This document shows positions 1,920 to 8,804 of a DNA stretch of 33,967 nucleotides, one piece after another (positions within the stretch are counted from its first letter, which is position 1; every line of letters starts with the position of its first letter). A program made the translations under genes and the position numbers. The stretch is taken from positions 1 to 33,967 of the forward strand of contig JAHFED010000063.1 of the NCBI GenBank assembly GCA_023248635.1. The letters are read 5' to 3'. The DNA comes from Myxococcales bacterium (GTDB lineage: Bacteria; Myxococcota; UBA727; VGSZ01). Under the pieces are notes generated by a model. The model was given only the letters and a program-made list of their open reading frames with translations. It was not told the origin of the DNA and ran no database searches.

Positions 1920-2473
1920 CCACGCTCTCGACGTCAGACGTGGTGCGACAGCACGGACCGGCGGTGCTTTCACGGCTGCGGCGGATGTTTGGCGTTCACG
2001 CTGACATCGACGACACCTTTCAGCAGGTCATGCTCGAGGTGGTCCGCGGCCTGCCGGGTTTTGCGGGCCGCAGCGAGGTGTCGACGTGGATTCACCGCAT
2101 CACCCTCAACGTTGCCTACCAACGGATGCGCCGTCACTACCGCACCCCAGGGAGTGTCGCCTTGGACAGCGAAAACGAGCCCCCCAACAACGACGAAGAC
2201 GCGTTGGCTCGGCTGGAGCGCGCCGAGACAGCCCGCCTGTTGCACACCTGTCTCGAAGCCCTGCCGCCCAAAAAGCGGGTGGCGGTCGTGCTGCACGACA
2301 TCGAGGGGCTGACCCTGCAAGCGATCTGCGAGCACATCGGTGTTCCGCTGCAAACAGTCGCCTCCCAACTCAAGGCCGGGCGGGCCGAGCTCGCCGCCCT
2401 CATGCACCGCGCGCTGCACGACCAAGCGCGCCGCACGCAGTCCCCCCAGCCCGTGCAAAGAGGCACGTCATGA
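1916..2473 (+). CDS. ECF-type RNA polymerase sigma factor
   Basis: The product has 185 residues, the usual size for an extracytoplasmic-function sigma-70 factor. Region 2 is seen at about residues 24-66 (DIDDTFQQVMLEVVRGL, then STWIHRITLNVAYQRMRRH). Region 4 with its helix-turn-helix is at about residues 118-165 (LPPKKRVAVVLHDIEGLTL, then ICEHIGVPLQTVASQLKAGR). An upstream in-frame ATG at 1901 exists, but 1916 gives the ATGA overlap with the preceding stop and the normal family length. The 3' end overlaps the next gene by the same ATGA arrangement. The factor is expected to direct RNA polymerase to its own regulon and be held inactive by the anti-sigma protein encoded next. Confidence 0.93.
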   Translation: MTTLSTSDVVRQHGPAVLSRLRRMFGVHADIDDTFQQVMLEVVRGLPGFAGRSEVSTWIHRITLNVAYQRMRRHYRTPGSVALDSENEPPNNDEDALARLERAETARLLHTCLEALPPKKRVAVVLHDIEGLTLQAICEHIGVPLQTVASQLKAGRAELAALMHRALHDQARRTQSPQPVQRGTS

Positions 2474-3867
2474 GTCGTTCCTGCGAAGAACACCGCGCTG
2501 ATCTAATGGCCCATCTCGCCGGCGACCTGGCGGCCTTGGAGCACGCCCGTCTCGAGGCGCACCTGGCTCACTGCGCCGATTGCACCGCTTTGCGCCGCGT
2601 CCTCGCCCTCGGGCTTGCGGCTGCCCGCGATGTGCCCTCCCCCACCGACGCCGAGATCGAAAGGCTCATCCAGCAAGCGCAGCCGACGACGGCGGTGTCT
2701 CGCATCCGCCCGCCATTGCGCCTGCTGGGCTTGGTCGTGCCCTTGGCGGCAGCAGCAGCCCTGGCCTTCGTCGTCATCGGCACGCCGCCGCCCCAACCGC
2801 CGCCCCTTCCCGGACCCGTCGCCGGCCTCTTGCCGCCCGCGCGATTCTCTGGCCTCGTGCCGGGCGGCCCAGTGGATGCCGGTCCCGTGGTGTTGCCTGC
2901 CTCGGGCCCAGAGCCCGTCGAAGCGCAGCCGAGCGCCTACGTCCGACTCGTTCACGACGGCGGCTATCGGGGCGCGGTTGCGGAGCGGAGGGCCGGCGAG
3001 ACGGTCCTGGTCGTCGATCAGGGCTCCGTGGCTGTGTCCTTCATGGGCGGCGAAGGCCGGCGATTGCGCGTCGAAGCAGGCGACGTCTCCATTGATGTCA
3101 CCGGCACCCGCTTCTACGTCGCACGACCCGACGCAGCTCGGGTGATCGTTGGAGTGCGCAGTGGACACGTCGAGGTCCACGTTGGCGCATCGACCCGCAC
3201 GCTGGGTCCAGCAGAGGTGCTCCAGATCGAGGGATCCGCCATCAGCAATCACAGCAGCGACGGCGACGCCTTCGTCTGGACGGATCGTCCCTTCCTGCTC
3301 AGCGGTGAGCGGCACGCCGACGTCCATGTCGATCCCCAACCGCCCGGCGCCGAGCTCAGCCCCAGCTCGACGCCGCAGCGAGCCGGTGCCCCCCTGGTGA
3401 GCGCATCGCGAAACGACCCCGACGGCAACGCGCGCGCCCCCCAGCACGAAGCCACGGCGGCCCTGCTCGCGCTTTTCGCCGATGCTGAGGCCCGCACCTT
3501 GGCTGGGGACGTCGACGGAGCTCGGTCGCTCTATCGTCGCGGGGTGAGCGATCCCATCTTTGGCAGCAAGCGCGCTCTCGCCGAGTTCGAGTTGGGCCGC
3601 TTCCTCGCGCTCACGGACAAGGACCCCGCTGCCGCTCGCCCCCTGCTGGATCGGCTGGCCCACGGATCGAGCAACGTCGCCGGAGACGCCGCCCTGCTGT
3701 TGTGCCGCCTCGACGAAGCCACCGATCCATGCGCCAGCGATCGTTGCCTGGCGAAGCTTGCCGCCGCCGGTGGTGCCATCGGTCGCGACGCGGCGCTGCT
3801 GAGGACCAAATTCTCTGCCCTCAGGCCGGGCGGCCAATTGCAGCTGCGCTGCCAAACGCCGGAGTGA
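2470..3867 (+). CDS. Zinc-finger anti-sigma factor with FecR domain
   Basis: The protein has 465 residues and starts at the ATG that overlaps the sigma factor stop. The cytoplasmic N-terminus holds an H-x3-C-x2-C zinc motif (H31, C35, C38 in HLAHCADC), typical of zinc-binding anti-sigma domains. A transmembrane helix follows at about residues 81-104. The periplasmic part has a Pro-rich linker, then a FecR-like domain at about 157-253 (RRAGETVLVVDQGSVAV, DVSIDVTGTRFYV, VRSGHVEVHV). The C-terminal 130 residues are helical and TPR-like (ARSLYRRGVSDPIFGSKRALAEF) with several cysteines. The order sigma factor then membrane anti-sigma factor is a standard cell-surface signalling pair: the FecR part would receive an envelope signal and the N-terminus would release the sigma factor. 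Confidence 0.88.
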   Translation: MSRSCEEHRADLMAHLAGDLAALEHARLEAHLAHCADCTALRRVLALGLAAARDVPSPTDAEIERLIQQAQPTTAVSRIRPPLRLLGLVVPLAAAAALAFVVIGTPPPQPPPLPGPVAGLLPPARFSGLVPGGPVDAGPVVLPASGPEPVEAQPSAYVRLVHDGGYRGAVAERRAGETVLVVDQGSVAVSFMGGEGRRLRVEAGDVSIDVTGTRFYVARPDAARVIVGVRSGHVEVHVGASTRTLGPAEVLQIEGSAISNHSSDGDAFVWTDRPFLLSGERHADVHVDPQPPGAELSPSSTPQRAGAPLVSASRNDPDGNARAPQHEATAALLALFADAEARTLAGDVDGARSLYRRGVSDPIFGSKRALAEFELGRFLALTDKDPAAARPLLDRLAHGSSNVAGDAALLLCRLDEATDPCASDRCLAKLAAAGGAIGRDAALLRTKFSALRPGGQLQLRCQTPE

Positions 3868-3966
3868 TTCGTCGTGGCTGCTCACGAGCACCAACGCGGT
3901 ACCTCGGGCCCTTCCGTTGGGAGCGCCGTGATCCTTGTTGAGAAAGCCGCTCTGCTCGCAGGCGAG

Positions 3967-5469
3967 GTGCTGCATCGGGCGCTTCTTGGGCGAAGCCGCT
4001 GCGCCGCGCTGGCGGGGCCGCTGGTGGCCGCGTCCTGTGTGCTGCCGGTCGATCTGCGCCGCACCCCAGCCGAAGGTGGGGACGAACAACCGCCCATCGC
4101 CACGAACGCCGACATCCGGCTCCTCGACACGGATCCCCTGCACGACGGAACCGCGGAGGCGGCGCTGGTGCTGCACCACGGCTCGGTGTGGGCAGGGCCT
4201 TCCAGCGACGGGCGTCGGCTGGCCCAATACTCCTTGGACGGCTCCAGCCTGGGGGCGCGCACCTTCTCCATCGCTGCCGATCAAGGCGGCGCGCACACCA
4301 ACTCGAACAGCACTCCCCCCCCCTACCAGACCTTCGGCGCCCCGAACTGCATCATCAACACCGCCGCCTGCGGGCCCGACAACGAAGGCAGCGCCGTCTT
4401 CCTCGCGGGCGTCAATTGGCCGCCCGGCCCGAGGGCAGAGAATTTCGCTGGCGCCGATTGGCTTGTGGCAGGTGCCAGCAGGGCCGACGGGGGCGTGCGC
4501 TACCTCTACATGGGGCAGGACGGCGGCGACGACGTCATTGCTTTTGCCCCCGTCGAGCTGAGCGCCGTGTTGGATGACGTCGACGGAGCCTCGAACGCGC
4601 TGGGATTGGCCACCGTCGCCGTCGTCGGGGAGCGCTTGTACCTGGGCCTGCCGGCGACCGGCGCCAAGCGACCGCGCTTGCTGGCTCTCCTGCACCCGCC
4701 GCCCGATCCGGAGCAGGTGTTCGAGGCCCGCGCCACTGGGACCTGCGATCCGGCGATCGACGACGTCTGCGACCTTCAGCTCGATCAAGTCCCGCTGCTC
4801 GCAGAAACGAGCAGCGTCGCCGGCATCGACGCCGTCGTGAGGTATGAGGGCCGCACTTATCTCGCCGACGCCGCCGTGGTCCTGCAGGCCGATTCCACGA
4901 CGCCCACGGCAGGCGAGCTGTGGACCGACGCGACCTCCAACGACGCCCGCCTTTCCGAGAGCCAGCTGGTTTCAGCGACCGGGCCGAGCGTCCAGACGCG
5001 CGACAAGGGGACCCCCGGCCTCATCAACGTGGGAACGGGGCTTGTGATGCTGAAGAACACCCAGGACGGAGCCCGCGTCTTCGTCTGTCAGCGCGACGAC
5101 TCTGCACCGACTTTTCAGTGTGGGGCCTGGCACGAGGCCACGCTCCCCTCTGAGTTCGTGGCGTCGGTGGACCCCTTGGACCCGAACAACGGGGGACGCA
5201 TCTCGGCCTTGGCCCTTGTTCGCGGGGTGCTGCTGCTCGCTCTCGACAACTCGACCGGAGCGTTGTTCGCGGCCTGCCCCCTGATCGCTGGCGTCATCAA
5301 CGACACCCCGCAGCTCGTGACCTTCGACCTCCTTGGGGATCCCGGCCTGGGAAACCCCAGCCTCACCCGCGTCATCGGCGCCGTCGACGTCGGCGACGCC
5401 GCCTTCGTGCTGCTCGGAGACGGGACCACGCCCGGTGAGCTCTTCCGCATCGCGATCGGCGGTCCCTGA
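3967..5469 (+). CDS. Predicted lipoprotein of unknown function
   Basis: The reading frame is open from 3874, but the GTG at 3967 gives a clean lipoprotein signal: basic start, hydrophobic segment ALAGPLVAAS, then C24. With this start the protein has 500 residues. The mature part is rich in short beta-type segments with Gly/Asp turns (LATVAVVGERLYLGLPATG, VVRYEGRTYLADAAVVLQ, ISALALVRGVLLLALDNSTG). This suggests a beta-propeller or similar repeat fold, though no blade motif is clear enough to name. Cysteines are few and partly paired by sequence (CDPAIDDVC, CQRDDSAPTFQC). It lies about 100 bp after the anti-sigma gene on the same strand and may be the last gene of the same unit. Function is not known. 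If the upstream start is used, the extra 31 residues would spoil the signal peptide. Confidence 0.75.
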   Translation: MLHRALLGRSRCAALAGPLVAASCVLPVDLRRTPAEGGDEQPPIATNADIRLLDTDPLHDGTAEAALVLHHGSVWAGPSSDGRRLAQYSLDGSSLGARTFSIAADQGGAHTNSNSTPPPYQTFGAPNCIINTAACGPDNEGSAVFLAGVNWPPGPRAENFAGADWLVAGASRADGGVRYLYMGQDGGDDVIAFAPVELSAVLDDVDGASNALGLATVAVVGERLYLGLPATGAKRPRLLALLHPPPDPEQVFEARATGTCDPAIDDVCDLQLDQVPLLAETSSVAGIDAVVRYEGRTYLADAAVVLQADSTTPTAGELWTDATSNDARLSESQLVSATGPSVQTRDKGTPGLINVGTGLVMLKNTQDGARVFVCQRDDSAPTFQCGAWHEATLPSEFVASVDPLDPNNGGRISALALVRGVLLLALDNSTGALFAACPLIAGVINDTPQLVTFDLLGDPGLGNPSLTRVIGAVDVGDAAFVLLGDGTTPGELFRIAIGGP

Positions 5470-5499
5470 ACCGATCCGCTCGGTGCTTCGCCGCTTGTC

Positions 5500-5634
5500 G
5501 ATGAATTCACCGACAGCGCTGCGCGTGTCGGTGAATTGTCTACAGGTTCATCGCCTGGCGGCGATGAATTCACCGACAGCGCTTTGCGTGTCGGTGAATT
5601 GTCTACAGGTTCATCGCCTCGCGGCGATGAATTC
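5500..5634. repeat. 63-bp tandem repeat with two palindromes per unit
   Basis: Two full 63-bp units begin at 5500 and 5563, and a third starts at 5626 but stops after about nine bases. Each unit holds a 10-bp stem (TTCACCGACA with TGTCGGTGAA) and a junction hairpin with a 9-bp stem (TTCATCGCC with GGCGATGAA). The first junction hairpin has the loop TGGC, the second TCGC. The units differ only at a few loop bases. They sit between the lipoprotein stop and the RlaP-type gene and could act as a terminator, an mRNA-stabilising element or a mobile REP-like element. The period is a multiple of three, so the frame stays open through it. Confidence 0.9.
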
Positions 5635-5649
5635 TTGCAAGATGCCGCC

Positions 5650-7635
5650 ATGCACCGCCCCTTCGCCCTGGCCAACGATGACGCTCTGCTGCCGCGGGGA
5701 ACCCGCGCCGTCATCAAGGTCAGCGCCGTCGACGACGCGGGGGTGCGCCACCGTTCGGGAGTGCTCGTCGTCGTCAAAGAGCAGCTGCCGGGTTCGAGCT
5801 ATGGGGTCGAGAGCATCGCTGGGGCCCACTTCGTCGTCGGCCGCGACGCTCTGGTGTTGGAGAAGCCGGATCACCTGCAGGCTCTCGCCCAACGCCAACA
5901 CGATCACGCGCGCCTGACCGAGCACGTGGTGCTCGCCGTCGTCGTCGGCAGCCGCGCCTGGGGCCTCGCCAACGCCGCCTCCGACGAAGATGTGCGGGGC
6001 TGCTTCGTGCTGCCCTTCGACGAGGAATCATCCATCTACGACGCGCCTGAGGAGATCCACGCGGGCGAGGCCGCGTATTGGGAGATCGAGAAAATGGTGC
6101 GGCAGGGGTTGCGGGCCGATCCCAACACCCTCGAGACCCTCTGGTCGCCGCTGGTGAAGGTCGAGCACGGCATCGGGGCCCGCCTGCGCAGCGAACGCGC
6201 CATCTTTTCTTCGCTGCGGGTCATCGATGCCTTTGGCCGCTATGCCCAAAGCCAGCTGAAAAAACTCGAGCGCGCCTTGGCACGACGACGTCATCTCAAG
6301 GTGCTGCTCCACGTCGTGCGCGCGGGTCACGTAGCGACCGTCAACGCCGCCCAAGCGTTCCTCCCGCCCGGCGAAGATGTGCATGCTTTGGTGCGCTCCC
6401 TCTTCGATCGCGGGCTGCTGGCGTCGTCGACCTTTGGAGCCCTGATCGATGCCGTCGCCGCTGTCGGCGTCGAATCGCTCCTGCCCGACGAGGTGCGGCC
6501 CAAGAACGCCTACAACCTCGTGCGACTGCTGCACTCCTGTGCCCATTGGATCCGGGTCGGCGAGCCCTTGATCACCATCAGCGGACCCTTGAGGCACGAG
6601 CTGCTGGCCATCAAGCGCGGCGACTTGTCCATCGACGACACCCTGCTGCGCGCCGCCGACGCCGCCGCCCTCGTCGATGACCTGGTCAAAAGCGGCGGCT
6701 CGCCCTTGCCCGCCGAGCCAGACGTGCAAGCCGCCGACGCCATCGTGCGCGCCGCCCGCCGGGATGCCGCCCGCTTGGTTTTTGCGGTGCCCGAGACCCA
6801 CGTCGACGGCTGGCCGCCCGATCGCTTCACCACCACCTTCGCGCCCACGCCCCTGCCCCTCGACGTCGACCTGGCGGCTTTGCGCGCGTTTCTGGACGAG
6901 AAAGCCCAGCGCCTGCCCGGGCCTTTTCTCGTCGTGGGGCTGACAGGTTCCCACGCCTACGGCTTCCCCTCGCCGGACTCCGATCTCGACCTCAAGGCCG
7001 TGCACGTGGCGCCGGCCCGCTCCCTCCTCGGGCTCTCGCCGGCGGTAACGCCGCTGGAGCTCGTCGAGATCTACCGGGGCAGAGAGATGGATCTCTCGTC
7101 CCACGAGCTGCTGCTCAGCGCCCAACTCTTGCTCAAGGGCAACGGCAACCTGCTCGAGCGCTTGCTCGGTCCCTGCGTGGTGCTGCGTTCCCCCGTCGGC
7201 GAGGATCTCAGCACCCTGGCCCGCCGCACGCTCTCGCGTCGCGTCGTGCACCACTACCGCGGCTTCTTCGAGCGCATGATCACCGAGCATGAAGGGGCGA
7301 AGGCGACGTCGTCGTCGTCGACGGCGAAGCGCCTCCTGTATGCCTATCGGGTGGCATTGACTGGGGCCCATCTCTTGGCCACGGGAGCACTGGTCACAGA
7401 CGTGCGGGAGCTGGCCCCCCTGTATGGCTTCGACATCAGCGCGCTGCTCGAGCAAAAGCGCAGTGGCGAAAAAGCCCCGGTCAAAGACGACGGCGCCTTT
7501 CTCGTCGACACCATCGTCTTGCGCGCCTTGCTCGACGAGAAGCTGCAGAGCTCGCCCCTGCCCGAGCACCCCCACCCCGAGGCTGCCGCCGCCCTCGATG
7601 CTTTCGTCGTCGAAGCCCGGCTCTCGTGTCCTTGA
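5650..7635 (+). CDS. Double RlaP-type nucleotidyltransferase-fold protein
   Basis: With the ATG at 5650 the protein has 661 residues. It carries two separate polymerase-beta-type nucleotidyltransferase signatures. The first is GSRAWGLANAASDEDVRG at residues 100-117. The second is GSHAYGFPSPDSDLDLKAV at 433-451, with D445 and D447 as the likely metal ligands. Both match the GSxxxG...SDxDxxG pattern of the RlaP family, named for RNA-ligase-associated polymerases; most members have a single domain. Each half continues with a helical region of about 200 residues. The frame is open upstream to 5536 through the 63-bp repeats, but homology-like sequence begins near 5650; there is no clear Shine-Dalgarno. 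The gene overlaps the DTW-domain gene by ten bases, so the two are probably co-translated and may act on the same RNA. The substrate is unknown. Confidence 0.85.
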   Translation: MHRPFALANDDALLPRGTRAVIKVSAVDDAGVRHRSGVLVVVKEQLPGSSYGVESIAGAHFVVGRDALVLEKPDHLQALAQRQHDHARLTEHVVLAVVVGSRAWGLANAASDEDVRGCFVLPFDEESSIYDAPEEIHAGEAAYWEIEKMVRQGLRADPNTLETLWSPLVKVEHGIGARLRSERAIFSSLRVIDAFGRYAQSQLKKLERALARRRHLKVLLHVVRAGHVATVNAAQAFLPPGEDVHALVRSLFDRGLLASSTFGALIDAVAAVGVESLLPDEVRPKNAYNLVRLLHSCAHWIRVGEPLITISGPLRHELLAIKRGDLSIDDTLLRAADAAALVDDLVKSGGSPLPAEPDVQAADAIVRAARRDAARLVFAVPETHVDGWPPDRFTTTFAPTPLPLDVDLAALRAFLDEKAQRLPGPFLVVGLTGSHAYGFPSPDSDLDLKAVHVAPARSLLGLSPAVTPLELVEIYRGREMDLSSHELLLSAQLLLKGNGNLLERLLGPCVVLRSPVGEDLSTLARRTLSRRVVHHYRGFFERMITEHEGAKATSSSSTAKRLLYAYRVALTGAHLLATGALVTDVRELAPLYGFDISALLEQKRSGEKAPVKDDGAFLVDTIVLRALLDEKLQSSPLPEHPHPEAAAALDAFVVEARLSCP

Positions 7636-8804
7636 ACGGGCGGGAGACCTGCTGGCGCTGCCGCCGACCCCAAAAGACCTGTTGGTGCGCGCAGCTGCCT
7701 TCATTGTCGACGACGAAGACGCGCGTGGTCTTTGTGCAACACCCGCGGGAACGAGACGTGGCCATCGGCACGGCGCGCATGGCCCATCTCGCGCTGCCCG
7801 GCTCGCTCTTCATCGAGGGCTTGGCCATCGACGATCACTTGCCCGACGAAGACGACGTCGCCGTGCTCTTTCCCGGCGAGGGCGCCCGGCCACTGGCGCA
7901 GTGGCTGCAGAGTCCGCCCAGGGTGTTGATCGTCGTCGACGGCACGTGGTCGCAGGCTCGCAAGCTGCTGCGCTTGAACCCACGCCTGGCCGCGCTCCCC
8001 CGCCTCTCGTACGATCCGCCTCAGCCCGGCAACTACCGGATCCGCCGCGAGCCCAGTGACAAGCACTTGTCGACCATCGAGGCCACCGCCGCCGTGCTGG
8101 GCGTCCTCGAGGGAGATCCCGCGCGCTTCGCCACCATGCTTTTGCCTTTCGATCTCATGGTCGATCGCCAACTGGCCGCCGTCGCAGCCCAGGGACGTCG
8201 ACGTCAAGCGCGGGTGCGACCCCACCAGAGCCCCCTCCCCGAGCTCGAAGCCCTCGACCCCGAGCGCGCCGTCGTCTGCTACGCCGAAGCCAATTGCCAC
8301 CCCCAGCCCGATCGCGCTGCCGGCGCACCTGAGCTCTTACACCTCGTGGCCAGCAAGCCGCTCTCGTCGTCGCCATCGTTTTTTTCTGTGGTGTTGCGCC
8401 CGCGTCGGCCGTTGCACGAGAGCGTGGCGCCCCGGCTCGGCCTGGCGCGCGCAGACCTCGAGGCCGGCGTCGACGTCGACGTCGCCTTGCAGGGCTTCCG
8501 GGCCTTCGTCGGCGACCAAGCTTTGGTGTGTTGGGGCTCATTCGCCCGCGACCTGCTCGCGCAAGAGGGAGAGCCGCGCCGTGGCTTCATCGATCTCCGT
8601 GCCCTGGTCGCGCGCACCCGCCAGCGCGCAGCCGGTGGAGTCGAGCGCGCGGCGCGAGAGCTCGGGGTCGTCGCCGACGTCGACGCCACCGCCCCCCGCG
8701 CTGAACGCATGCATGCGGGGATCGCCGCGCTGCTCGTGGAGCTGTACCGCCGCCGCTCCCAATGGCTGGGTGCCCCTCGGTCGCTGCAGGGCGCTTCTCG
8801 CTGA
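7626..8804 (+). CDS. DTW-domain tRNA-uridine aminocarboxypropyltransferase-like protein with decayed exonuclease-like C-terminus
   Basis: The GTG-started protein has 392 residues. The N-terminal 200 residues are a DTW domain: zinc-type cysteines C9, C12, C19 and C21 (CWRCRRPQKTCWC), the signature DGTW at 105-108, and YRIRREP near 137-143. DTW enzymes of the TapT type use S-adenosylmethionine to place an aminocarboxypropyl group on tRNA uridine. Residues 210-385 look like a DEDDh exonuclease fold (LRPRRPLHESVAPRLGL, ALVCWGSFARDLL, FIDLRAL, MHAGIAALLVEL). However, the catalytic acids appear lost: the D-x-E pair reads YAE at 219-221, the WGxxD position reads WGSFA, and the acid after H363 is replaced by Ala. 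The tail may therefore only bind RNA. It overlaps the double RlaP gene, suggesting a joint role in tRNA modification or repair, which is inference. Confidence 0.85.
   Translation: MSLNGRETCWRCRRPQKTCWCAQLPSLSTTKTRVVFVQHPRERDVAIGTARMAHLALPGSLFIEGLAIDDHLPDEDDVAVLFPGEGARPLAQWLQSPPRVLIVVDGTWSQARKLLRLNPRLAALPRLSYDPPQPGNYRIRREPSDKHLSTIEATAAVLGVLEGDPARFATMLLPFDLMVDRQLAAVAAQGRRRQARVRPHQSPLPELEALDPERAVVCYAEANCHPQPDRAAGAPELLHLVASKPLSSSPSFFSVVLRPRRPLHESVAPRLGLARADLEAGVDVDVALQGFRAFVGDQALVCWGSFARDLLAQEGEPRRGFIDLRALVARTRQRAAGGVERAARELGVVADVDATAPRAERMHAGIAALLVELYRRRSQWLGAPRSLQGASR

Follow-up and report, generated by a model that had tools for sequence, protein, structure and literature searches.

Two unlike RlaP-type nucleotidyltransferase domains in one chain from a Myxococcales bacterium, and their paired relatives

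Introduction

RlaP (PF10127) is a nucleotidyltransferase family that occurs alongside RNA ligases and is predicted to restore lost nucleotides before ligation (PMC7824862). The passage concerned describes no pair of RlaP proteins, whereas in the gene reported here, both halves of which match the family, two diverged members that are conserved together have become fused, and one half carries an added barrel. HalB of the Hailong system and the aminoglycoside nucleotidyltransferases share with both halves the polymerase-beta nucleotidyltransferase fold (Z about 9–10), but they differ in sequence (10–16% identity), contain a single nucleotidyltransferase domain and act on other substrates. For HalB itself the values are Z 9–10 at 11–14% identity, and a shared fold alone does not amount to membership.

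The Rtc operon (RtcR, RtcB, RtcA and Ro60) is related to the pair through neighbours in some relatives. An unfused RlaP pair lies in or beside such operons at three of the loci described below (L102, L110 and L138), whereas no such operon adjoins the fused gene and RtcR is missing from its genome. To our knowledge, no RlaP pair is found among the genes of the Rtc operon of E. coli or Salmonella. With the tRNA acp3U transferase TapT the downstream gene shares a DTW domain; that gene, however, is a separate one with its own history, and its place next to the pair is not conserved.

In the literature searched, which did not cover the founding paper of RlaP, we found no description of a paired or fused RlaP, and a prior description is possible. 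We therefore regard as provisionally new a conserved pair of unlike RlaP proteins that is sometimes fused and in which one partner carries an additional barrel and an altered site.

Results

The fused gene and its domains

The window, that is, the whole stretch of 33,967 nucleotides that was analysed, contains the following features at the locus.

5650..7635, + strand: fused two-domain RlaP gene, 661 aa, ATG start, matching PF10127 twice
5683..5874, + strand: N-terminal Tudor/SH3-like barrel, about residues 12–75 (VIA-align, fold resemblance only)
5902..6672, + strand: N-type RlaP nucleotidyltransferase domain, about residues 85–341 (PF10127, 73.4 bits; motif residues D112, D114, E140)
6850..7632, + strand: C-type RlaP nucleotidyltransferase domain, residues 401–661 (PF10127, 109.9 bits; motif residues D445, D447, D481)
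7626..8804, + strand: DTW-domain (TapT-like) gene, GTG start (PF03942, 148.3 bits)

The original prediction of two RlaP-type domains in one chain is borne out, as both halves exceed the PF10127 cut-off and both yield confident models. Pfam hmmscan matched PF10127 in two stretches of the 661-residue protein (E 1.5e-52 and 179.2 bits over the whole protein, against a cut-off of 23). In the genome search, 6934–7611 (109.9 bits) and 5902–6369 (73.4 bits) each passed this cut-off alone, and both stretches share one open frame without a stop. The N half contains the motifs GSRAWGL (100–106) and SDEDVRG (111–117) and the C half GSHAYGF (433–439) and SDLDLK (444–449). The proposed spacing of 333 residues between the two signatures holds, but the second does not follow the proposed SDxDxxG, as it reads SDLDLKA. 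The ATG start at 5650 agrees with homologues that align from the first residue, and an alternative in-frame TTG at 5536, upstream of it, falls inside a genome-wide repeat.

A search for solved-structure relatives by sequence returned none that was convincing, the best being an editosome TUTase (E 0.2). The NCBIfam model of MntA, from the MNT-HEPN type VII toxin-antitoxin system, scored 19.5 bits against a cut-off of 60, and the head domain of CCA-adding enzymes and poly(A) polymerases (PF01743) gave no match in the fused protein at E ≤1.

An AlphaFold2 model of the whole chain, built from an alignment of 46 relatives, reached a pLDDT of 89.9 and a pTM of 0.83; the full-length relatives of the fused protein number three, at 45–47% identity. 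The pTM suggests a fixed packing of both halves, short of proof. The C half is confidently modelled as a polymerase-beta nucleotidyltransferase, aligning with HalB at Z 10.2 over 177 residues (at 425–626) and with AadA at Z 10.1. In the VIA results for the whole chain the rows were taken up by the C half and the barrel, and a separate model was therefore built for the N half (40 sequences; pLDDT 92.1, pTM 0.84). Its model, likewise a confident one, has the same predicted fold, with Z 9.0 to HalB over 170 residues at 92–341 (VIA-align) and a best E of 3.7e-11 to predicted viral nucleotidyltransferase structures. Each of the two motifs is placed by the models in a nucleotidyltransferase fold, so that the outcome named beforehand as refuting the original prediction, a motif outside such a fold, did not occur. 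The barrel aligned in VIA-align with 8h43_C (Z 8.2 over 54 residues) and 6kco_A (Z 8.5 over 56). It resembles Tudor, PWWP and SH3 domains (Z about 8 over 50–57 residues), a common shape from which function is not implied.

Several other features of the window were recorded. A 63-bp unit is arranged head to tail at 5482–5634, upstream of the fused gene, and contains internal inverted repeats. Its 37-base core has 59 matches in the genome with at most three mismatches (42 forward and 17 reverse; the reversed control gave 0), often in tandem with a spacing of 62–63 bp, and looks like a dispersed intergenic repeat family. A 33-nt inverted repeat (3808–3840 and 4413–4445, 97% complementary, 572 nt apart) flanks the gene start at 3874, and 2086–3867 encodes a protein with an anti-sigma zinc-finger (zf-HC2) match and a weak FecR match.

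Two paralogue clades and their fusions

The two-domain form had been described as duplicated, which the comparison of the halves contradicts. BLASTP found no similarity between the N half and the C half (E 0.49). A quick IQ-TREE tree of 81 domains with SH-aLRT support separated long N-types with the barrel (24 rows, support 99), short N-types without it (14 rows, 95) and a group of C-types with three other RlaPs (43 rows, 100). The halves thus appear to be members of two old paralogue clades, N-type and C-type, that were joined by fusion, and the BLASTP result together with the separate clades rules out a recent tandem duplication.

N-C fusions are those of the window, L074, L131 and L005; in the tree their N halves group together (support 96), as do their C halves (95), which fits a single N-C fusion event. 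Locus L113 carries a C-N fusion with two PF10127 stretches in 684 aa. On this sequence evidence, fusion arose at least twice, in opposite orders. A survey of fusions across Myxococcota had been proposed, and among 195 genomes of the phylum, 85 of which contain PF10127, a single-frame match spanning both halves in N-C order was found in four (the window's genome, G018, G019 and G020).

The C half appears from its alignment to possess the complete set of three catalytic carboxylates, D/D/D. The positions of D445, D447 and D481 are occupied by D in 80, 81 and 80 of 81 C-type rows, respectively. The alignment of long N-types holds 55 rows including the window. Wherever the first two acids can be read (53 rows) they are D, while the third position, readable in 54 (one row has a gap), is S in 48, E in three (the window, L074 and L131) and T, A or C in one each. 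The N half of the window keeps D112 and D114, with E140 as the third residue. The fourth fused member has D there, so that the fused clade overall shows E or D, and in the short N-types the position is D or E in 13 of 13 readable rows out of 17. Loss of the third acid would therefore seem to accompany the split long N form, the fused clade having retained an acid. In the group with Ser, an Asp two places before the third position is common and might replace the lost acid. Calling the N half dead is unwarranted by the change at the third position alone; E140 could still act as a metal ligand, so that this half of the window's protein may have activity of its own.

Pairing of N-type and C-type genes in relatives

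All 85 RlaP-positive genomes of the phylum are listed with two PF10127 matches each. Those without a fusion mostly contain separate, neighbouring N-type and C-type genes, among the matches with places listed. A single-sequence search of contigs from named genomes gave no relatives, and an alignment profile search of the same contigs gave 457 C-type relatives, of which the best 80, biased to close ones, were analysed.

Of these best 80 of 457 loci, 71 have another RlaP domain no more than 2.5 kb from the C-type gene, a number to be read with the fact that the loci are not independent, many being from Myxococcaceae. The 71 paired loci comprise 53 with a split long N-type, 11 with a split short N-type, three with a short N-type on the opposite strand, one with a split short N-type in C-N order, two N-C fusions and one C-N fusion. 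Stop and start codons overlap by 4 nt (ATGA or GTGA) in 37 of the 64 split N-C tandems in this set. Pairs are also found in records named Acidimicrobiaceae (L107), Verrucomicrobiota (L126) and Thermoanaerobaculaceae (L153). This pattern suggests that N-type and C-type proteins work as a mated pair.

No near partner was found within 2.5 kb at nine of the best 80 loci. RlaP pieces lie more than 3 kb from the C-type gene at L081, and L144 and L151 are short contigs (3192 and 3898 bases). In the genomes G102–G105 (L054, L057, L060 and L061) the N-type has no adjoining C-type, and a different RlaP is located on another contig (for example L055 and L056). The two genes are 7 kb apart in G072 (L049), and at L058 an RlaP of a third kind is followed directly by a short N-type.

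Irregular N-type genes were observed as well. That of L061 (G104) is interrupted by a stop, and those at L059 6065–7170 (G039) and L062 6268–7219 (G074), each with an adjoining C-type, are split over two frames, which reflects either a decaying N partner or a sequencing error. The record L084, titled Comamonas sp. KCTC 72670, contains a Myxococcus-like pair and is probably misnamed.

Gene neighbourhood and Rtc RNA repair

Neighbours (77 downstream and 66 upstream) were picked from among the genes called by a simple gene finder. The commonest Pfam families among them are protein kinases, APH and redox enzymes with 3–5 members each, in lists that show 25 of 93 and 25 of 97 families. Most pairs are flanked by ordinary genes that differ from locus to locus. 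A conserved neighbourhood was sought at 20 Myxococcota loci and rejected, as nothing beyond the pair was common to distant genera.

An RNA-repair setting, as originally predicted, gains support from a few relatives in which RtcR, RtcB, RtcA and Ro60 adjoin the unfused pair. RtcR adjoins the pair at L102, L110 and L138, that is, at three of the best 80 of 457 loci, two of which (L102 and L110) come from isolates with near-identical names and are possibly close kin. RtcB and RtcA are present at two of the three and Ro60 at one. We estimate that RtcR at three of 80 short flanks is far above chance, given about one RtcR gene per many-megabase genome. The whole contig of L138 (L176, 12,040 bases) carries, in order, RlaP-N, RlaP-C, RtcR on the other strand, Ro60 with vWA and TROVE domains, an unknown ORF, RtcB, RtcA and a tRNA nucleotidyltransferase. 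On the contig of L102 (L177), RtcB and RtcA run in one direction and RtcR, RlaP-N and RlaP-C in the other. The unknown ORF of L176 (6967–7641) encodes 224 aa without a Pfam match between Ro60 and RtcB, an arrangement seen at one locus. An Rfam scan of L176, L177 and the window gave no match.

Across the phylum, RtcB is present in 84 of 85 RlaP-positive against 64 of 110 RlaP-negative genomes, figures that are uncorrected for kinship. RtcR is present in 68 of 85 against 9 of 110, likewise uncorrected. In both comparisons most of the genomes come from one large family, and P-values calculated from them are not reliable. In the family to which the window belongs, RtcB and RlaP are both present in the window's genome and both absent from its three relatives. 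The rtcB gene that was to be looked for elsewhere in the genome does exist, on a different contig from the fused gene; RtcR was not found in this genome.

The DTW gene

The fused gene shares its last 10 nt with the start of the DTW gene, and in the window the two are probably co-transcribed. The DTW family profile matches a solved tRNA-uridine aminocarboxypropyltransferase (E 1.5e-11). Coupling to a tRNA-modification gene had been taken as functional evidence, a claim that found no support. A DTW gene occurs at one of 77 downstream neighbours, namely the window's own, and the same-family genomes G001–G003, which keep DTW orthologues of 61–64% identity, contain no RlaP. As a functional partner the DTW gene was accordingly rejected; the link is local, and the gene stands outside the conserved module. 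About 200 residues (8190–8804) extend its product at the C terminus and are conserved in three relatives. The extension matches DEDDh exonuclease chains at chance level (E 0.64 and 0.97) and might be a degenerate exonuclease-like domain.

Discussion

We are inclined, by no means firmly, to read the gene product as a two-part template-independent RlaP nucleotidyltransferase for the 3′ ends of damaged RNA, in which the C half is catalytic and the N half is its partner; the substrate is probably tRNA. The enzyme would take part in RNA repair, dealing with ends that have lost nucleotides when RNA is damaged, as by an anticodon nuclease. The C-type half would restore these nucleotides at its D/D/D metal site, while the N-type half with its barrel would mainly bind or position RNA or protein and tune the activity of the C half. 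In the usual state, separate subunits from adjacent and often translationally coupled genes would touch and act as a heteromer, and in the window the two parts would be held 1:1 in a single chain. The putative N-half site is altered, with E140 in the window and Ser in most barrel-bearing relatives, and one member of the pair may be shifting from enzyme to helper. The suggestion that one domain regulates the other is plausible in light of the third acid lost in most barrel-bearing N-type relatives.

RtcB ligates 3′-phosphate or cyclic ends to 5′-OH, so that a 3′-OH produced by nucleotide addition would not be its direct substrate. Possible ways round this mismatch are another ligase, a phosphate added later or a function at the CCA terminus. 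Also against the reading that we favour, RtcR adjoins only three of 80 loci while most pairs have ordinary, variable neighbours, nine of the 80 loci gave no near partner, the N-type of G102–G105 stands without an adjoining C-type, and the window's genome carries its RtcB off the contig and has no RtcR.

The N half of the window retains the GS...D.D motif and an acid at the third position, a position that is E or D throughout the fused clade and acidic in all 13 of the 17 short N-type rows that can be read. These features would be expected if both halves were active on different substrates or nucleotides and had been joined to channel two repair steps, one half extending a cleaved tRNA half, for instance, and the other the 3′ end. 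We consider such a division of labour, and that example of it, appreciably improbable but worth keeping in view, as Ser occupies the third position in 48 of 54 readable barrel-bearing N-types, even if the earlier Asp could substitute there. A target other than damaged RNA ends seems unlikely, be it protein, small molecule or an intact tRNA whose modification would stop translation. Polymerase-beta families offer precedent in aminoglycoside transferases and MNT-type antitoxins, the solved structures nearest in fold are those of aminoglycoside nucleotidyltransferases and HalB, and most pairs lie outside repair operons. The sequence match, however, is to PF10127 and not to the aminoglycoside-transferase or MNT families, one of the viral proteins with this fold bears the name "RNA repair pathway protein", and some relatives have RtcR, RtcB, RtcA and Ro60 as neighbours.

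The N/C pair might instead be an obligate heteromeric maker of an oligonucleotide signal that is read by the CARF-domain activator RtcR, which would then trigger repair. The barrel and altered site of the N half would serve to sense damaged RNA, and the C half would polymerise. The structure of HalB, the nearest solved fold, is titled with an oligodeoxyadenylate (9dbh), and the window's genome, having no RtcR, would need another reader; we hold this signalling role to be very unlikely. That the fused gene is a functionless relic or an assembly accident in this genome is scarcely credible. G001–G003 of the same family are without RlaP and the estimated contamination of the genome is 2.91%, but the 661-residue frame is open with every motif retained, and three other genomes carry the same N-C fusion in one clade with the window. 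Two further features place the contig in this lineage, namely orthologues of its DTW gene in G001–G003 at 61–64% identity and the presence of the genome's dispersed repeat.

The role of RlaP is predicted and not assayed in the literature examined, and the pair makes the mechanism of the family directly testable. That two unlike members normally occur together in these bacteria, with fusions in both orders, offers a possible reason why a single member may look inactive in an assay. Through the pair, a little-studied enzyme of social bacteria is also connected with Rtc repair.
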